A DNA stretch of 64,000 bases from Dehalococcoidia bacterium (GTDB lineage: Bacteria; Chloroflexota; Dehalococcoidia; Bin125), in contig JAJDWB010000019.1 in assembly GCA_022825855.1 (NCBI GenBank), forward strand, positions 62,001 to 126,000, given 5' to 3'. Positions 54,628 to 61,128 of this stretch are shown one piece after another. The notes below the pieces were generated by a model. It made no database searches, was not told the origin of the DNA, and worked only from the letters and a program-made list of their open reading frames with translations. Numbering within the stretch: position 1 is the first letter of the stretch; the number at the start of each line of letters is the position of its first letter. The position numbers and the translations under genes were made by a program.

Positions 54628-55273
54628 GCCACGCCGGCTCCCGTCTCTGATGCTCGCGCTGCTGTTCACGGCAGCGGCTGCCTGGCTGACCGCGCCCGAC
54701 GCCGCCGCCCACGCCGCCTACGAGTCCTCGACGCCCGCCTTCGCCGAGCAACTCGACGAGTCGCCCACCCGGATCAGCATCCGCTTCACCCAGGAACTCT
54801 TCCGCCGCGAGGGGGCCAACGCAATCAGCGTCCAACACGCCGACTCCGGCCGGCAAATCGCCGTCGGACCGCCAACGATCGGCAACGACGATCGTCGACT
54901 CATGACCGTGGACCTGCAAGACACGCTCGCGCCCGGTCGCTATCTGGTCTCCTGGACCAACCTGTCGGCCGAGGACGGCGACGAGGACTCGGGCGCATAT
55001 CCCTTCTACGTCGCGAGCCAACCCACCGATTCGGACCAGTCCGACGACCGCCGCATCGCCGCCGACCTGCTGATCGCCTACCCCGGCGACGAACCACAGC
55101 AGCAAACCGCCGATCCGACCCCGATCGCCCCCGCCGTGGTCCGTACCGACGACTCGCCCGACCCCGCCTTGGGCGCGGGACCGATCGTCTTCCTCGCCGT
55201 CGGCATCGCGGCCGCATTGCTCCTGGTCGGCGCGCTCGGCTACCGACTCGGCGCGCGGCGAAGGGGCGCATGA
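54608..55273 (+). CDS. CopC-domain copper-binding protein with a C-terminal membrane anchor
   Basis: The 221-residue protein has a signal peptide (to about residue 36), a CopC-like beta domain starting at the histidine in AAAHAAYESS (the copper-ligand His at the mature N-terminus), and ESPTRISIRFTQEL. A proline-rich linker and a single C-terminal hydrophobic helix (about 195-215) follow. CopC proteins carry Cu(II) in the periplasm or on the cell surface. The second copper site is not obvious. The stop overlaps the next gene by ATGA. Confidence 0.8.
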   Translation: MAATTNKPRRLPSLMLALLFTAAAAWLTAPDAAAHAAYESSTPAFAEQLDESPTRISIRFTQELFRREGANAISVQHADSGRQIAVGPPTIGNDDRRLMTVDLQDTLAPGRYLVSWTNLSAEDGDEDSGAYPFYVASQPTDSDQSDDRRIAADLLIAYPGDEPQQQTADPTPIAPAVVRTDDSPDPALGAGPIVFLAVGIAAALLLVGALGYRLGARRRGA

Positions 55274-56379
55274 TGCAAGTCGTGGCCGCGTTCGCCATCG
55301 CGATCCTCTCCTGCGTCCTGCTCGCTTGCGGCTCCGGCGACGCCGAGGCCGAGCGCCGCATCCCCGCGCCTGGCACGTTCGTCTTCACAGCCGGCGTCGA
55401 CCTCTGGATCCAGGACGAACACGGCGCGCGCCTGCTGATCGAGGCCGGTCAGGATCAGCAACTGCTCCAGCCCGCCATCTCCCCCGACGGCGCGCAGGTC
55501 GCCTACGTCGTCTTTCAGCTCACCCAGGCCGAAGGCACGACCATCGGCACCGACCTCGCCGTCTCCAGCATCGCCGAACCCCAACAGCGGATCGTCGTCC
55601 AACACCAGGACCTCGCCGAGTTCTTCTGGAATCCCCGCTGGACGCCCGACGGCGAGTCCCTGATCGTCACCCACGAGTCCGCCGCGGCCCCGATCAGCGT
55701 CGTCCGCGTCGAACTGCCCGGCGGCGACCTCGAAACCCTCCGTGCCGACGCCCGCGACGCCGACATCTCGCCCGACGGCGCCCGCCTCGTCTTCGTCAGC
55801 GGGCCCTACAGCGGCGATCCCCATCTCGTCGTCCGCTCGCTCGCCGACGGCTCCGAGATCGTCCTCGATCCCGCGCGCCGCTGGCAGCCCCGACCCTTCC
55901 GCATCCCCCGCTTCAGCGCCGACGGCGAGAGCGTGATCTTCTCCGCCGGTCAGTACCTCCCCCAGGTTTCCGCACGCCCCGTCCCGGTCCCCGAGCCGGG
56001 ACCCGCTCGGTCAACGCGCGACGCCTTCCGGCCTTCCCCCGTCCCGGCCCCCGAGCCGGGACCCGCTCGGGCTGCCGCCTCCATTCGCCTGAACGGCCCC
56101 GAGGACCTCTGGAGCGTCCACCTCCCAACCGGCGAGCTCCGCCAACTCGCCGCCGTCAGCGAGGATCAACCCGACTTCACGCTCTCCGCCGACGGCCGCC
56201 ACGTCCTGATCTTCGGCGCATTCGGCACCTACCTGATCTCCACCTCCGCCCTCGAGCCCGCCTACGCCATCGCCCCGGGCGAGTTCCACGGCTGGATCGA
56301 CTGGATCGGCAACGTCAGCGACGAACAGTGGGCCGAGATCCGCGAGTCGGTCTTCGAGATTCCGGACCGCACCGAATGA
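55270..56379 (+). CDS. Lipoprotein with PD40/TolB-like beta-propeller
   Basis: The 369-residue protein has a lipobox-like VLLACGSG near residue 17 and several WD40-like PD40 blades with the SPDG signature (ISPDGAQVAYV, WTPDGESLIVT, ISPDGARLVFV, FSADGESVIFS, LSADGRHVLIF). The blade after residue 235 is interrupted by an insertion of about 40 residues made of two copies of VPxPEPGPAR, which comes from a duplicated 30-base palindromic segment. It overlaps genes on both sides by four bases. The role in the copper-type operon is not known. Confidence 0.75.
   Translation: MMQVVAAFAIAILSCVLLACGSGDAEAERRIPAPGTFVFTAGVDLWIQDEHGARLLIEAGQDQQLLQPAISPDGAQVAYVVFQLTQAEGTTIGTDLAVSSIAEPQQRIVVQHQDLAEFFWNPRWTPDGESLIVTHESAAAPISVVRVELPGGDLETLRADARDADISPDGARLVFVSGPYSGDPHLVVRSLADGSEIVLDPARRWQPRPFRIPRFSADGESVIFSAGQYLPQVSARPVPVPEPGPARSTRDAFRPSPVPAPEPGPARAAASIRLNGPEDLWSVHLPTGELRQLAAVSEDQPDFTLSADGRHVLIFGAFGTYLISTSALEPAYAIAPGEFHGWIDWIGNVSDEQWAEIRESVFEIPDRTE
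55981..56070. repeat. Direct repeat of a 30-bp palindromic element inside a coding region
   Basis: Positions 55981-56010 and 56041-56070 match at 29 of 30 bases, exactly 60 bases apart. Each folds as GTCCCGG ... CCGGGAC with an 8-base loop. Both are in the same codon phase, so they add VPVPEPGPAR and VPAPEPGPAR without a frameshift. Confidence 0.85.
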
Positions 56380-58574
56380 GGCGCGCCGCTCCGCTGGCCG
56401 CCGTCCTGTTGACCGTCGTCGCGGCCGTGTTGCTGATCGCGCGCGACGCCGACGCCCACGCTTTGCTCGCCCGCGCCGACCCGCCGATCAACGCCTCGCT
56501 GCGCGAGTCGCCCACCCGAATCACGCTGTTCATGACCGAACAGCTCCAGCGCAGCCACAGCTCGGTCCAGGTCCTCGACAGCAACGGCCAGCGCCGCGAC
56601 ATCGGCGAAACCGAGTTCTCCGACGCCGTGCCCACGCAGATGGGCGTCCGCGTGCTGCGCCTCGACCCCGGCGTCTACACCGTCGTCTGGGAAACGCTCT
56701 CCGAGGTCGACGGCCACACCTGGACCGGCTCCTACGTCTTCTCTGTGCTCAACCCCGACGGCTCCGCGCCCGCCGGCAGCGGCGTCGTGGTCGATCTCGA
56801 TCGCCCCGGACCGCCGGTCGCCGCCGACTCCGTCGTCAAGGCGATCGGACTCGGCGCGTTGGTGCTCTTCGTCGGCGCCGTGGGCATCACAGCGCTGCTC
56901 CGCCCCTCGCCCCTGCCCGCGCTCATGCCGTTGATGGCCCTGGCCGTGGTCGTCGGACTCGCCGCCACCGGCTACGAGACCATCGCCGGCGCGCTCCGCC
57001 TCGGCGACATCGGCTTCCTCGGCGATGTCCTCTTCGACTCCCGCAACGGACTCTGGCTGCAGCAGCGCTGGTACGCCCTGATCCTCGCCGCCCTCCTCCT
57101 CACCTGGCGCCTCTCTCGCCCTTCATCCACTCCCCGCCCGCTGCTCCTCATCCTCGCCCTGGTCGCCGCCGTCTGGTTGGCCTCCGCCTCCGCAATCTCC
57201 CACGGAGCGGCAATCGGCTCCGGCTGGATCTGGGGCACGCTGTTCGACGCCCTCCACCTGGCCGCCGCCTCCGTCTGGATCGGCGGACTCGCCGCCCTGC
57301 TGCTCTCAGTCCGCGCCAACCCCGACCGCCGCATCGACGCCGTCCGCCGATTCTCCGTCGTCGCCGCGCTCATGGTCCCCGTCCTCCTCGCCGCCGGACT
57401 GCTCTCCGCCCTGATCCAGATTCCCGACATCGACGGCATCGCCGGGACCGACTGGGGCGCCGCCTTCATCGCCAAGCTGATCTTGCTCTGCCTCCTCTTC
57501 GCCGCCGCAGCCGCCAACGCCTTCCTTTTGCGCCCCCGCGACGCCGCGGCCTCCGGCTCGGACCCCATCCTTGCGCGCCGATTCTCCCGCATGATGCGAG
57601 CCGAAGTCGCGCTCGGACTCGCCGTGATCGCCGTCTCCGCCGTGCTCACCCAGCTCCCCTCCCCGGCCAGCGCCCAGCCCGAGGTCGAGCAGAAGGACAA
57701 CACCGTCGTCGAGACCGTCGCCCGAGGCGACGTCGTCGCCTCGCTCGAGATCTCGCCCAATCTGGTCGGGTTCAACACCTGGACCGCCGCCGTCGACGCG
57801 CCCTCCAACAACCCCGTCGAGGCGCTGCTGCTGCGCTTCCGCTACCAGGACCGCAGCGTCGGCCCGGTCACCGTCCCCGCGACCAGGATCGCCGAGGACC
57901 GCTTCCAGCTTGAAGGCGCATACTTCGGACTGCCCGGCGAGTGGACCGTCGAGATGGAGCTGCGCCGCGCCGCCGGCGACGACCTCGTCGCGGGCGTCCG
58001 CACCGGCGTCGAATCCGGCTTCCAGGCCTCACCCTTCGCCGCCGACCGCGGTGGCGCGCTCGCCCTGCCGCTCACGCAGATGGACTGGAACGGCGTCGGC
58101 GCGCTCTGGGCCTTCCTGCTCGCCGCCCTGGCCTGGATCAACCGGCCCCGCATCCGCAGACGCTGGGGACCGCGCGGCGGCGACGCCGCTTTCGCCGGCG
58201 GCCTGCTCGGCCTGATCGTCGCCGTCGTGCTGCTCACCGGACTGCACGTCGAGCCCGGCCGCACGCTGGCCAATCCGGTCCTGCGCACCGAGCAATCGGT
58301 CGAGCGCGGCGCGGCCCTCTTCGCCCGCAATTGCGCCTCATGTCACGGCGAACAGGGCGCGGGCGACGGCCCGCTCGCCGACACCCTGCCCGCGCCCCCC
58401 GCCAACTTCACCGTGCACGTCCCCTTCCACCCCGACGGCGTGCTCTTCGCCTGGATCTCCGACGGCATTCGCGGAACCGGCATGCCCGCCTGGTCGCCCC
58501 AGCTCTCCGATCAGGAACGCTGGGATCTGGTCAACTTCCTCCGTGCCAGTTTTGACGTCTCCGTTGCCCAGTAA
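56376..58574 (+). CDS. CopC-CopD-cytochrome c fusion protein
   Basis: About 732 residues in three parts. (1) A signal peptide and CopC domain with the mature N-terminal His (ADAHALLARADPP) and VDGHTWTGSYVF, the Cu(II) Asp-x-His site. (2) A CopD-like multi-helix membrane domain (about 150-430) with His residues in helices (ISHGAAIG, DALHLAAASVWIGG). (3) After a beta domain and further helices (about 580-620), a C-terminal monohaem cytochrome c with C653-A-S-C656-H657 and the likely axial M703 in GMPAW. CopCD imports copper; the cytochrome would link it to respiration. ATG 56376 overlaps the previous stop. Confidence 0.88.
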   Translation: MRRAAPLAAVLLTVVAAVLLIARDADAHALLARADPPINASLRESPTRITLFMTEQLQRSHSSVQVLDSNGQRRDIGETEFSDAVPTQMGVRVLRLDPGVYTVVWETLSEVDGHTWTGSYVFSVLNPDGSAPAGSGVVVDLDRPGPPVAADSVVKAIGLGALVLFVGAVGITALLRPSPLPALMPLMALAVVVGLAATGYETIAGALRLGDIGFLGDVLFDSRNGLWLQQRWYALILAALLLTWRLSRPSSTPRPLLLILALVAAVWLASASAISHGAAIGSGWIWGTLFDALHLAAASVWIGGLAALLLSVRANPDRRIDAVRRFSVVAALMVPVLLAAGLLSALIQIPDIDGIAGTDWGAAFIAKLILLCLLFAAAAANAFLLRPRDAAASGSDPILARRFSRMMRAEVALGLAVIAVSAVLTQLPSPASAQPEVEQKDNTVVETVARGDVVASLEISPNLVGFNTWTAAVDAPSNNPVEALLLRFRYQDRSVGPVTVPATRIAEDRFQLEGAYFGLPGEWTVEMELRRAAGDDLVAGVRTGVESGFQASPFAADRGGALALPLTQMDWNGVGALWAFLLAALAWINRPRIRRRWGPRGGDAAFAGGLLGLIVAVVLLTGLHVEPGRTLANPVLRTEQSVERGAALFARNCASCHGEQGAGDGPLADTLPAPPANFTVHVPFHPDGVLFAWISDGIRGTGMPAWSPQLSDQERWDLVNFLRASFDVSVAQ

Positions 58575-58648: not shown

Positions 58649-59683
58649 ATGGTGACCGCGATTGAAAACCCGGGACTCAACCTTGACTGGCTGAACCTCG
58701 AGACGGACGACGAGTTCGACATCAAGACTGGCCGTAAGGGCGTCACCCTCCAGTCCATCAACCAGCGCATGGCCGGTGTCGAGGGCGTCGACCAGGCCGA
58801 CTGGCGCTCCTTCGCGCCGCGCGGCATCGAGGCCGACCCGCGCTCCAACGCCCACGCCCGCCAGTACCGCGACAAGGGCGACGTCTGGTCCGAGTCCGCC
58901 ATGCTGCTCTACGAAGAGGCCCTGCAGCGCCAGTGGTCCTCCGCCCGTGACATCCCCTGGGACACGATCGGCGACCAGCCCGACGACATCGAAAAGGCGA
59001 TGTGCACGCTCTGCACGTTCCTCACCCAGGTCGAGTTCATCGCCGGCGACGTCCCCGGCCGCTTCCTCGAGTCGGTCCACCCCGACTTCTTCGAGTCGCA
59101 GCTCTTCCTCGGCACCCAGCTCATGGACGAGGCCCGCCACCTCGACGTCTTCCGCAAGCGCGTCCTGGTCAACGGCGGCGGCATGTCCCCGGCCGGCCTC
59201 GGCGCGGTCGGACTGCTCGCCATCGACGACTTCACCGAGATGACCGCCATCCTCCACCTCTTCGCCGAGGGCCTGGTCCAGTCGCTCTTCCGCATGGGCG
59301 AGCTGATTGGCCAGAACGAGGCCGAGAAGCGCATGTTCCGGCTCTCCGCCCAGGACGAGTCCCGCCATCTCGCCTTCGGTGTCACCCACACCAAGTACAC
59401 CGTCGAAACCCAGCCCTGGCGCAAGGAAGAACTGCACCACTACCTCGACATCAACGAGACCGTGCAGAACACCCAGGCCGGCCTGACCACCAACCCCATC
59501 ACCGGCGAGGCGCTCGCCGTGCTCGCCGGCGGCGGCATCGAGTACCTCGACGAGGGCTACAACCTGCTCATGCTGATGCGCAAGAAGCAGATCAACGAGT
59601 ACTACCACCGCCTCCAGGTGGTCGGCCTCGGCGACCGCCTCGACCGCATGGCCCCCGATCTGCGCGAGCTGATCACGGTGTAG
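58649..59683 (+). CDS. Ferritin-like diiron oxidase/oxygenase
   Basis: The 344-residue helical protein has a complete class I-type diiron site: E129 in TQVEFIAGD, E161 and H164 in MDEARHLDVF, E207 in FAEGLVQ, and E237 and H240 in DESRHLAFG. This E, ExxH, E, ExxH pattern is that of R2-type ribonucleotide reductase subunits, R2-like oxidases and diiron hydroxylases. Nothing marks a specific reaction. A near-homologous, ligand-poor partner is encoded 170 bases downstream at 59854, so it may act in a two-protein complex. The intervening 10-bp repeat array may control that second gene. Confidence 0.85.
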   Translation: MVTAIENPGLNLDWLNLETDDEFDIKTGRKGVTLQSINQRMAGVEGVDQADWRSFAPRGIEADPRSNAHARQYRDKGDVWSESAMLLYEEALQRQWSSARDIPWDTIGDQPDDIEKAMCTLCTFLTQVEFIAGDVPGRFLESVHPDFFESQLFLGTQLMDEARHLDVFRKRVLVNGGGMSPAGLGAVGLLAIDDFTEMTAILHLFAEGLVQSLFRMGELIGQNEAEKRMFRLSAQDESRHLAFGVTHTKYTVETQPWRKEELHHYLDINETVQNTQAGLTTNPITGEALAVLAGGGIEYLDEGYNLLMLMRKKQINEYYHRLQVVGLGDRLDRMAPDLRELITV

Positions 59684-59706
59684 CGCCAATCGGGCTTGTA
59701 CATGGC

Positions 59707-59801
59707 TGGAACGAACTGGACGGATTTGGACACAGTTGGACAGAGTTGGACATCATTGGACATGGTTGGACAGACCTGGACAGTGTTGGACAACGTTGGA
59801 C
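59707..59801 (+). repeat. Ten-fold TGGA array with exact 10-bp period
   Basis: TGGA occurs at 59707, 59717, 59727, 59737, 59747, 59757, 59767, 59777, 59787 and 59797, always 10 bp apart, and nine of the ten are TGGAC. The four to five bases between are variable. This is one motif per DNA helical turn, immediately upstream of the second ferritin-like gene. It is not a protein repeat, since 10 is not a multiple of 3, and it is not CRISPR. Confidence 0.9.
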
Positions 59802-59824
59802 GCTGCTGAGCCATCCGGACGCCG

Positions 59825-59830
59825 TACAAC
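59825..59830 (+). promoter_or_regulatory. Possible -10 box TACAAC downstream of the TGGA array
   Basis: TACAAC lies 24 bases before ATG 59854 and 24 bases after the last TGGA unit, which would put the array at about -35 to -130. Confidence 0.3.
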
Positions 59831-59853
59831 CGCAATCACACGGGAACATCCTG

Positions 59854-61128
59854 ATGCCGACTCTCTCGCCCGCCCAGAAAATGCGCGCCCAGGTCCGCGG
59901 TTGGTCCGCCGATCTCATCGAGCGCGCCGAGCAGTCCAACGCCACCGGCACGCAGCTCGACAACATCCTCAACATCGCAATCGAGCCCGATCGCATCGGC
60001 AAGTGGCTCGACTTCGTCGAGAACGACCCCGATCATCCGTTCGCGCAGGCAAGCTTCATCATGTTCGAGCAGGGCGGCGAGACCGGTCTCAAGCCGACCG
60101 CCTCCGACGACGGCATGCGGCTCAGCGATGTCGACATCGGCTCCTACGGCCACGTGCCCGACGTCTGGAACTACCGCAACGACCTGCCCCGAGGCACCCG
60201 CCCCGTCCCGGGCATGTACATGCCCGCCGGCTACGCGATCTACGACCGCACCGAAGTCTGGGCCGAAGGCGTCTCCGACCTCTACGAGGACGCCATCCGC
60301 GACCGTTGGGTCCCGGCCACCGACCTCGATTGGGAGAACCGCGAGGAACTCGCGCCCGAGGTCGAACGCGCGACCGGTCAGCTCTGCGCCGTCTACTCGA
60401 CCTACGGCATCGCCGAGCAGAAGATCATCTCCAAGTGGCTGGAAGAAATCTCCTACGGCTTCCACGAGGTCAAGCTCTTCCTCGCCACCCAGGTCTACGA
60501 CGCCGGCCGCAAGGTCGAGGCCCTGCGCAAGCGCGCCCTCCACGGCTCCGGCATCATCGGCAAGGCCCCGCTCTCCGATGTCTCCGAGTCCTGGTACAAC
60601 GCCCTCACCTTCACCGACATGATCGTCGCGCTCGACGTCGTCTACAAGTCCTATGAGTTGACCGCGTTCGAATGCGCCACCGACTGGGCTCGCTCGGACT
60701 TCGACCGCGACCTCTTCGCGCGCCTCGCCGAAGACAGCAAGCGCCACCTCGAATACGGCCTCAAGCACCTCGAGTGGTACAACCGCTACGCCGAGCGCGC
60801 CGACCTCGAGTTGCCCATCTTCTTCATCAAGGCCGAGGGCGGTCTCTCCTCCGAGCTGGCCCAATCGCCGCTCGAGCGTGAGGCCCTGGCCGTGCTCTAC
60901 GCCGACGGCGTCGAGCGGCTGGACGCCGGTGTCGAGGAACTGCGCAAGCTGCGCGAGAAGCAGTACCACGACTACCTGCACCGGCTGCACGACCACGGCT
61001 TCGACCGCATCGGCGAGACCGCGACCATCCTCGGCCTGGTCACCCAGGACCCGCTGCTCAAGGCGCTCAACCCCGAGGCGCTGGTCGAAGGCGCAGCCGC
61101 CGGCACCACCGCCACCGATCGCGACTAA
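59854..61128 (+). CDS. Ferritin-like protein lacking the diiron ligands, partner of the upstream oxidase
   Basis: The 424-residue protein aligns with the diiron protein at 58649 without gaps around helices A-B and C-D. The equivalents of E129, E161, H164, E207 and E237 are G185, A217, K220, K265 and S295; only H298 (equivalent to H240) is kept. It therefore probably cannot bind a diiron centre by the same ligands. It has about 60 extra residues at the N-terminus and a short C-terminal tail. The nearest parallel is the non-catalytic subunit of bacterial multicomponent monooxygenases. A pseudo-enzyme partner or scaffold is inferred. Confidence 0.8.
   Translation: MPTLSPAQKMRAQVRGWSADLIERAEQSNATGTQLDNILNIAIEPDRIGKWLDFVENDPDHPFAQASFIMFEQGGETGLKPTASDDGMRLSDVDIGSYGHVPDVWNYRNDLPRGTRPVPGMYMPAGYAIYDRTEVWAEGVSDLYEDAIRDRWVPATDLDWENREELAPEVERATGQLCAVYSTYGIAEQKIISKWLEEISYGFHEVKLFLATQVYDAGRKVEALRKRALHGSGIIGKAPLSDVSESWYNALTFTDMIVALDVVYKSYELTAFECATDWARSDFDRDLFARLAEDSKRHLEYGLKHLEWYNRYAERADLELPIFFIKAEGGLSSELAQSPLEREALAVLYADGVERLDAGVEELRKLREKQYHDYLHRLHDHGFDRIGETATILGLVTQDPLLKALNPEALVEGAAAGTTATDRD

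Follow-up and report, generated by a model that had tools for sequence, protein, structure and literature searches.

The window, a stretch of 64,000 nucleotides from a genome of the Dehalococcoidia (Chloroflexota), carries two consecutive genes on its plus strand: gene A (58649..59683), which encodes a ferritin-like dimetal carboxylate protein of 344 aa and predicted catalytic subunit, and gene B (59854..61128), which encodes a 424-aa ferritin-like homologue of A without metal ligands, predicted to be a structural or docking subunit. Both descriptions draw on translation, homologues and AlphaFold2 models, and that of B also on dN/dS. Between the two genes, on the same strand, lie about nine 10-bp phased copies of TTGGACANNN (59717..59801), a repeat that is not conserved from species to species: one relative (locus L042) has eleven copies of TGGAC, and others have few or none. 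Just 5' of A (54650-58574) are genes for CopC, a beta-propeller lipoprotein and a CopC-CopD-cytochrome c fusion; the CopC/CopD-cytochrome genes are common only to near relatives of the window locus. The other window neighbours of the pair encode an alpha/beta hydrolase and a Na/H exchanger. Genes for SDR, CaiB-type CoA-transferase, luciferase-like and enoyl-CoA hydratase proteins were repeatedly seen near loci of this kind; because enrichment of CaiB-type and luciferase-like genes is reported across SAR202 genomes in general, these neighbours were not used as a clue to function. No conserved reductase or ferredoxin gene was recognised beside the pair, either among the window neighbours or at the other loci. 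The genome as a whole possesses three A-B pairs, on contigs C22 (the window), C13 and C16, and a separate shorter open reading frame that matches A weakly (L007/L034).

Homologues were gathered from the same genome, from the loci of relatives and from genomes of the class and phylum, most of which are metagenome-assembled. The named relatives are likewise metagenome-assembled genomes of Dehalococcoidia or Chloroflexota and, to judge from isolate names and class, appear to be largely SAR202-type bacteria associated with sponges or corals. Profile searches were confined to Chloroflexota; a scan of all phyla used a single query sequence, which picks up close relatives only.

An earlier note, made from the letters of the window, had recognised both open reading frames at these positions and had read in A the six ligands of a diiron site. 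All six are present: E129 (59033..59035), E161 and H164 within the motif DEARH (59129..59140), E207 (59267..59269), and E237 and H240 within the motif DESRH (59357..59368), every one on the plus strand. This E-EH-E-EH set is complete in each of the 72 A homologues. Although A proteins were sorted by these six ligands, gene order, separate profiles for A and B, and the tree described below all sort the proteins identically. In the model of A the ligands sit on helices 112-140, 145-176, 195-220 and 224-254, so that sequence and model together give A the four-helix bundle and ligand order of an R2/oxygenase-type dimetal-carboxylate protein.

Protein B has the predicted fold with the ligands gone, as in every other B, and is thus a pseudo-member of the same group. 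The alignment leaves no doubt that A and B are homologous (29% identity over 291 aa, E 4e-33); its helix A-B and helix C-D blocks are free of gaps near the ligands, and between the two blocks B is longer by a net two residues. Opposite the ligands of A stand G185 (60406-60408), A217 and K220 (60502-60513), K265 (60646-60648), and S295 and H298 (60736-60747), precisely the residues that the earlier note had listed. Five of the six ligands are replaced in the window protein, and H298, the counterpart of H240, remains. Among 50 non-redundant B proteins (reduced at 90% identity), two at most of the six ligand letters survive in any one protein: E129, E207 and E237 are retained in 0%, E161 in 2%, H164 in 40% and H240 in 68%. 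The active and the pseudo-subunit of the earlier note are a pattern of the whole family, with ligands invariant in A and lost throughout B.

The same note had taken the loss to be selected and specific to position, on a fold that was kept, and the wider sample bears this out. At the 68 columns that are invariant in A, the A residue is kept in B 57% of the time on average, versus 18% at the six ligand columns (permutation p 0.003), while R169, K170, R171 and R239 (A numbering) are kept in 96-98% of B proteins. Comparisons of close relatives give dN/dS of 0.06-0.27 for B and 0.01-0.13 for A. B is a maintained protein under purifying selection, as its dN/dS indicates; random decay is ruled out by dN/dS together with the site specificity of the loss.

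B also has an extra part. Its residues 1-65 (59854..60048, plus strand) form an N-terminal helical module, with model helices at 6-14, 19-27, 32-39, 45-57 and 62-65, which is repeated in the B proteins of other lineages; two stretches of the B protein of L136 match the Pfam family SinI (E 4e-7, just below the cut-off). An extra module of this kind is in keeping with a role in interaction. The B proteins of L136 and L195 have tandem helical modules (for example KGWPLDLVQQALAAGA..QIIGYMDQGVT) that resemble repeats of SinI or UBA type before the dead ferritin domain, and one basal A protein (L142) begins with a similar helical module.

Replacements at the ligand positions are constant in the clade of the window, where they read GAKKSH (13 of the 50 non-redundant B proteins), and diverse in other lineages (NAHDKH, AAHGKH, ALHDRL, QQHTLH, GAQNVQ, QQHALH, SYQALH, AVQNVQ and more). 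B might still bind something in the old site, either a different metal or some ligand that the lysines and a new acid would hold, which would make it a repurposed catalytic or sensing subunit. The constancy of GAKKSH, in which lysine has taken the place of two ligands, agrees with this, as do the new acid at 132 and the retention of H240 in 68% of B proteins; such binding is improbable all the same, since the replacements vary by lineage and may be charged or neutral, which leaves no common binding set. The new residues often pair in charge. Of the 31 scorable B proteins with E132, 30 are basic (Lys or Arg) at one or more of positions 164, 207 and 237; D207 occurs in 14, each of which is basic at position 237 or 132. 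In many lineages the metal site looks as if it had been rebuilt as a salt-bridged core.

AlphaFold2 models, which were restricted to the window proteins and homologues at related loci, have a pLDDT of 79.5 and pTM of 0.80 for A and a pLDDT of 81.2 and pTM of 0.72 for B. The best fold match of A is VlmB (Z 23.4, rmsd 2.5 over 250 residues, 18% identity), followed by R2lox, aldehyde-deformylating oxygenase (ADO), ribonucleotide reductase (RNR) R2 and the alpha subunit of methane monooxygenase hydroxylase (MMOH), all at Z of about 20-21. Those of B are VlmB (21.5), MMOH alpha (4gam, 21.2) and MMOH beta (6d7k_B, 20.1), then R2lox and ADO, with matches less than one Z unit apart counted as ties. 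By these models both proteins are ferritin-like, and a fold of another kind for B, which would have spoken against the earlier note, is ruled out by its model and fold matches. A ferritin-like fold with a predicted dimetal site would also suit an iron or oxidative-stress protein, such as a ferroxidase or a rubrerythrin-like protein, rather than an oxidase of a substrate. This is very improbable, because the best folds (VlmB, R2lox, ADO, RNR R2 and MMOH) all belong to O2-activating R2-type or oxygenase proteins, the long helices and flanking segments are those of R2-type proteins, and the pair has an obligate partner, gene C, described below.

None of the three proteins A, B and C is assigned to a Pfam or NCBIfam family at the curated cut-off, by which A and B constitute an undescribed family, and no published description of the pair was found in the open-licence PMC literature. 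The azoxy synthase VlmB (PDB 8wvr; homologue 6d9f), a dimetal oxygenase, is the nearest fold to A and also the first match of the A profile in a sequence search of the PDB (E 2e-6), but at 18% identity no transfer of function is warranted. We know of no dead paralogue partner of VlmB and of no counterpart of C in its system. The pathway partner of VlmB, VlmO, is a membrane protein (PMC11705231).

R2lox, the R2-like ligand-binding oxidase, shares with A the E-EH-E-EH ligand order and a fold match at Z of about 21, but A scores 31.6 bits against the NCBIfam model of R2lox (NF006200), far below its cut-off of 194. The ether cross-link pair of R2lox we take to be the Val three residues after the first Glu and the Tyr five before the fourth ligand, with which the titles of V72 and Y162 mutant entries agree. 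Unlike R2lox, A lacks this pair, having A132 in place of Val and L202 in place of Tyr; A132 is found in 39 of 40 A proteins, and Leu or Met at 202 in 38 of 40. R2lox also differs in having no paired dead subunit. It binds fatty acids, and one member has been reported as an alkane hydroxylase (PMC10867098).

Three known systems are closer in design. In phenylacetyl-CoA epoxidase, a catalytic diiron subunit (PaaA) forms a heterodimer with a structural subunit of the same fold (PaaC), and there are further small partners (PMC4498308). A and B resemble it in combining a predicted catalytic subunit with a predicted structural partner of the same fold; they differ from it in lacking Pfam membership and in their nearest fold, and no PaaE-type reductase or PaaB was recognised beside the A and B genes. 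The alpha and beta subunits of the hydroxylases of bacterial multicomponent monooxygenases (BMM; MMOH, phenol and toluene) are likewise an active and a ligand-free subunit of one fold. As the earlier note had proposed, the likeness is one of design and not of membership: neither A nor B matches the BMM family PF02332, alone or in 14 homologues each, the sizes differ, C gave no MmoB-like match, and no reductase was recognised at the A/B loci. In yeast RNR, Rnr2 and Rnr4 are duplicates of a dimetal protein, and the copy without iron ligands stabilises the other in a heterodimer (PMC2704937). Rnr2/Rnr4 is, however, a radical-generating RNR subunit, whereas A has only weak RNR matches: two of 14 homologues match PF00268 (RNR R2) at E up to 0.01 (best 4e-4), below the gathering cut-off, and the window A gives no match. 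At the position of the radical Tyr, four residues after the first His, all 40 A proteins have Phe (F168); class Ic R2 proteins also have Phe there, and F168 alone is not decisive. The A/B design resembles PaaA/PaaC, MMOH alpha/beta and Rnr2/Rnr4 while belonging to none of them; the pair was not filed under BMM, R2lox or RNR R2 because the features tested for membership of these families were not found.

An adjacent pair conserved in other genomes, which the earlier note had thought worth seeking, was found: the curated loci contain 29 adjacent pairs, and in 29 of 29 A precedes B on the same strand at a distance of 7-316 bp. Nearly all loci of relatives carry A and B side by side, the exceptions (L056 and L071) being cut by contig ends. 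In several families A and B are found on separate contigs, and nearly every such genome still has both. A search of the class with the B profile found matches in 97 of 294 genomes, about a third; the profile also matches A, and the figure therefore counts carriers of either gene. Pairs also occur outside the class, in G145 and G161 (family f57), which belong to a different class of Chloroflexota. Unpaired genes are few and belong mostly to incomplete genomes: G421 has A only, G581 has B only, and A genes of the type found in G312 and G469 seemingly have no linked B. A wide occurrence of B without A, which would have told against the earlier note, was not found, G581 being the single instance in a genome that is 76% complete. 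In some lineages A outnumbers B (2:1 in G557 and 3:2 in G277). The surplus copies, together with the unlinked A genes of G312 and G469 type, suggest that an A protein may in some cases work without a B or have one in common with another A.

A quick tree of 87 proteins places A and B in largely reciprocal clades with mirrored branching, from which it appears that the two split at one old duplication and that pairs were afterwards duplicated together. Less certain placements are those of the basal f8 lineage (G122 and G312) and of the second A of G356; the B row of G122 has a long branch, apart from the other B proteins and beside the A proteins of f8 and G356. Single relatives with intact ligands from other Chloroflexota lineages (X type: G079, the second copy of G145, and G225) branch outside A and B, and C is absent from the genomes that have the X type only (G079, G225 and G403). 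Two neighbours are conserved at the X-type loci L031, L032 and L149, a gene for a binding-protein-like product and an acyl-CoA dehydrogenase gene. As to spread by plasmids or viruses, A has one weak match, to a Xenorhabdus protein annotated as ferritin-like (24% identity over half of the query), whose neighbour of 603 bp is too short for B; the plasmid search with B or C gave no match, and viral contigs gave none.

The third gene, C, encodes a protein of about 145 aa. It lies directly 3' of B in 20 loci, 13 of them with gaps of less than 100 bp, and it still adjoins B at seven loci from which A has moved away (L136, L138, L154, L155, L163, L164 and L172). Of the 294 genomes of the class, 93 have A/B and C, four have A/B-type matches only, three have C only and 194 have neither, so that C and A/B co-occur in 93 of the 100 genomes with either (Fisher p 2e-67, from counts that are not phylogenetically independent). 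Across the phylum, C is found in the same 17 genomes as the strong A matches. In the genome of the window, C is a single gene away from the window contig (locus L183, contig C5, 158768-159193, minus strand), and one C would serve three A/B pairs. Where C is unlinked from A/B (L183, L184 and L189), a gene assigned from its sequence as a ThyX-like thymidylate synthase lies near it in the family of the window. The suggestion of the earlier note that the system is undescribed is supported, there being no Pfam or NCBIfam match at cut-off for it, but a system of two proteins is incomplete: C was missed because it is unlinked in this genome, and some lineages have in addition a fourth gene, D.

Sequence comparison of C gives suggestive leads only. 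Its best PDB match is a weak one to Thermus SCP2 (sterol carrier protein 2; E 0.34); the Pfam family SCP2 (PF02036) matches three of 36 C members, with a best E of 0.057, below the cut-off, and a search of the window's own genome with PF02036 gave 0 hits. No MmoB match was found in C. Gene D encodes a zinc-ribbon protein of about 100 aa between B and C at nine loci of families f57, f91 and f107, and all four D proteins tested match PF09723 (E 1e-9 to 2e-11); beyond these families the D search finds generic relatives only. The nine loci with this FmdB-type gene are L160, L161, L162, L163, L164, L029, L145, L146 and L150, and the D proteins have a conserved C-terminal tail, LDPxYxxxVxxxxxxTPxAxPMRHLxxxTPF.

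This distribution bears on whether A needs B at all. A could be a self-sufficient homodimeric oxidase of the R2lox/VlmB kind, with B a pseudoenzyme that has a separate role together with C, such as sensing lipids or redox state or acting as a scaffold; the linkage of the two processes would alone explain the common operon. Such a division of labour would account for the additional A copies of G277, G356 and G557, which no additional B accompanies, for the A-only loci, for the seven loci at which B stays with C, and for the ligand-complete X-type homologues of other classes, which have neither B nor C; to our knowledge, the solved R2lox and VlmB proteins need no dead partner. It is nevertheless rather unlikely in view of the near-perfect coupling of A and B at the genome level, the fixed A-B order, the co-duplicated pairs, and the matched B for each A in the genome with three pairs.

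The A-B-C gene set, kept together across the class, probably encodes one oxygen-using enzyme. The preferred reading, to which a probability of about two in three is attached, is that A, B and C are components of a dimetal oxidase in which A is catalytic, B is a metal-free structural subunit, and C is an accessory protein or substrate carrier. A and B would be two ferritin-like subunits of one dimetal (Fe/Fe or Mn/Fe) oxidase or oxygenase, joined in a physical complex, and A would bear the sole metal site and activate O2. B would have arisen by an ancient duplication of A, and it would have lost its metal site to other residues, which in many lineages seem to form internal salt bridges (E132 with K207 or with K/R237, and D207 with K/R237, in A numbering). 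B may keep A in an active hetero-assembly and provide a docking surface. C would be an obligate partner, a single copy of which could serve several A/B pairs; most simply, and this is the most speculative element, it might be a carrier or effector that hands a hydrophobic substrate to the A/B core.

Dimetal enzymes that combine an active and a dead subunit are known in few lineages (BMM, PaaA/PaaC and yeast RNR), and A/B looks like a separate case of this solution, on a branch resembling R2lox and VlmB. The metal site of B has been replaced naturally in dozens of ways, which makes it possible to ask why such enzymes retain a metal-free partner. Tentatively, and at somewhat less than even odds, the set may represent a new class of heteromeric dimetal oxygenases (A, B and an obligate C resembling a lipid carrier) that is widespread in SAR202-type Chloroflexota, its substrates being lipids or hydrocarbon-like compounds brought by C. 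Among the accounts checked, the SAR202 literature on flavin monooxygenases and other families mentions no ferritin-like or diiron protein. SAR202-type Chloroflexota are abundant, mostly uncultivated bacteria of the ocean, and if the set does oxygenate lipids or recalcitrant organic matter, it would be a candidate enzyme for what these bacteria oxidise.
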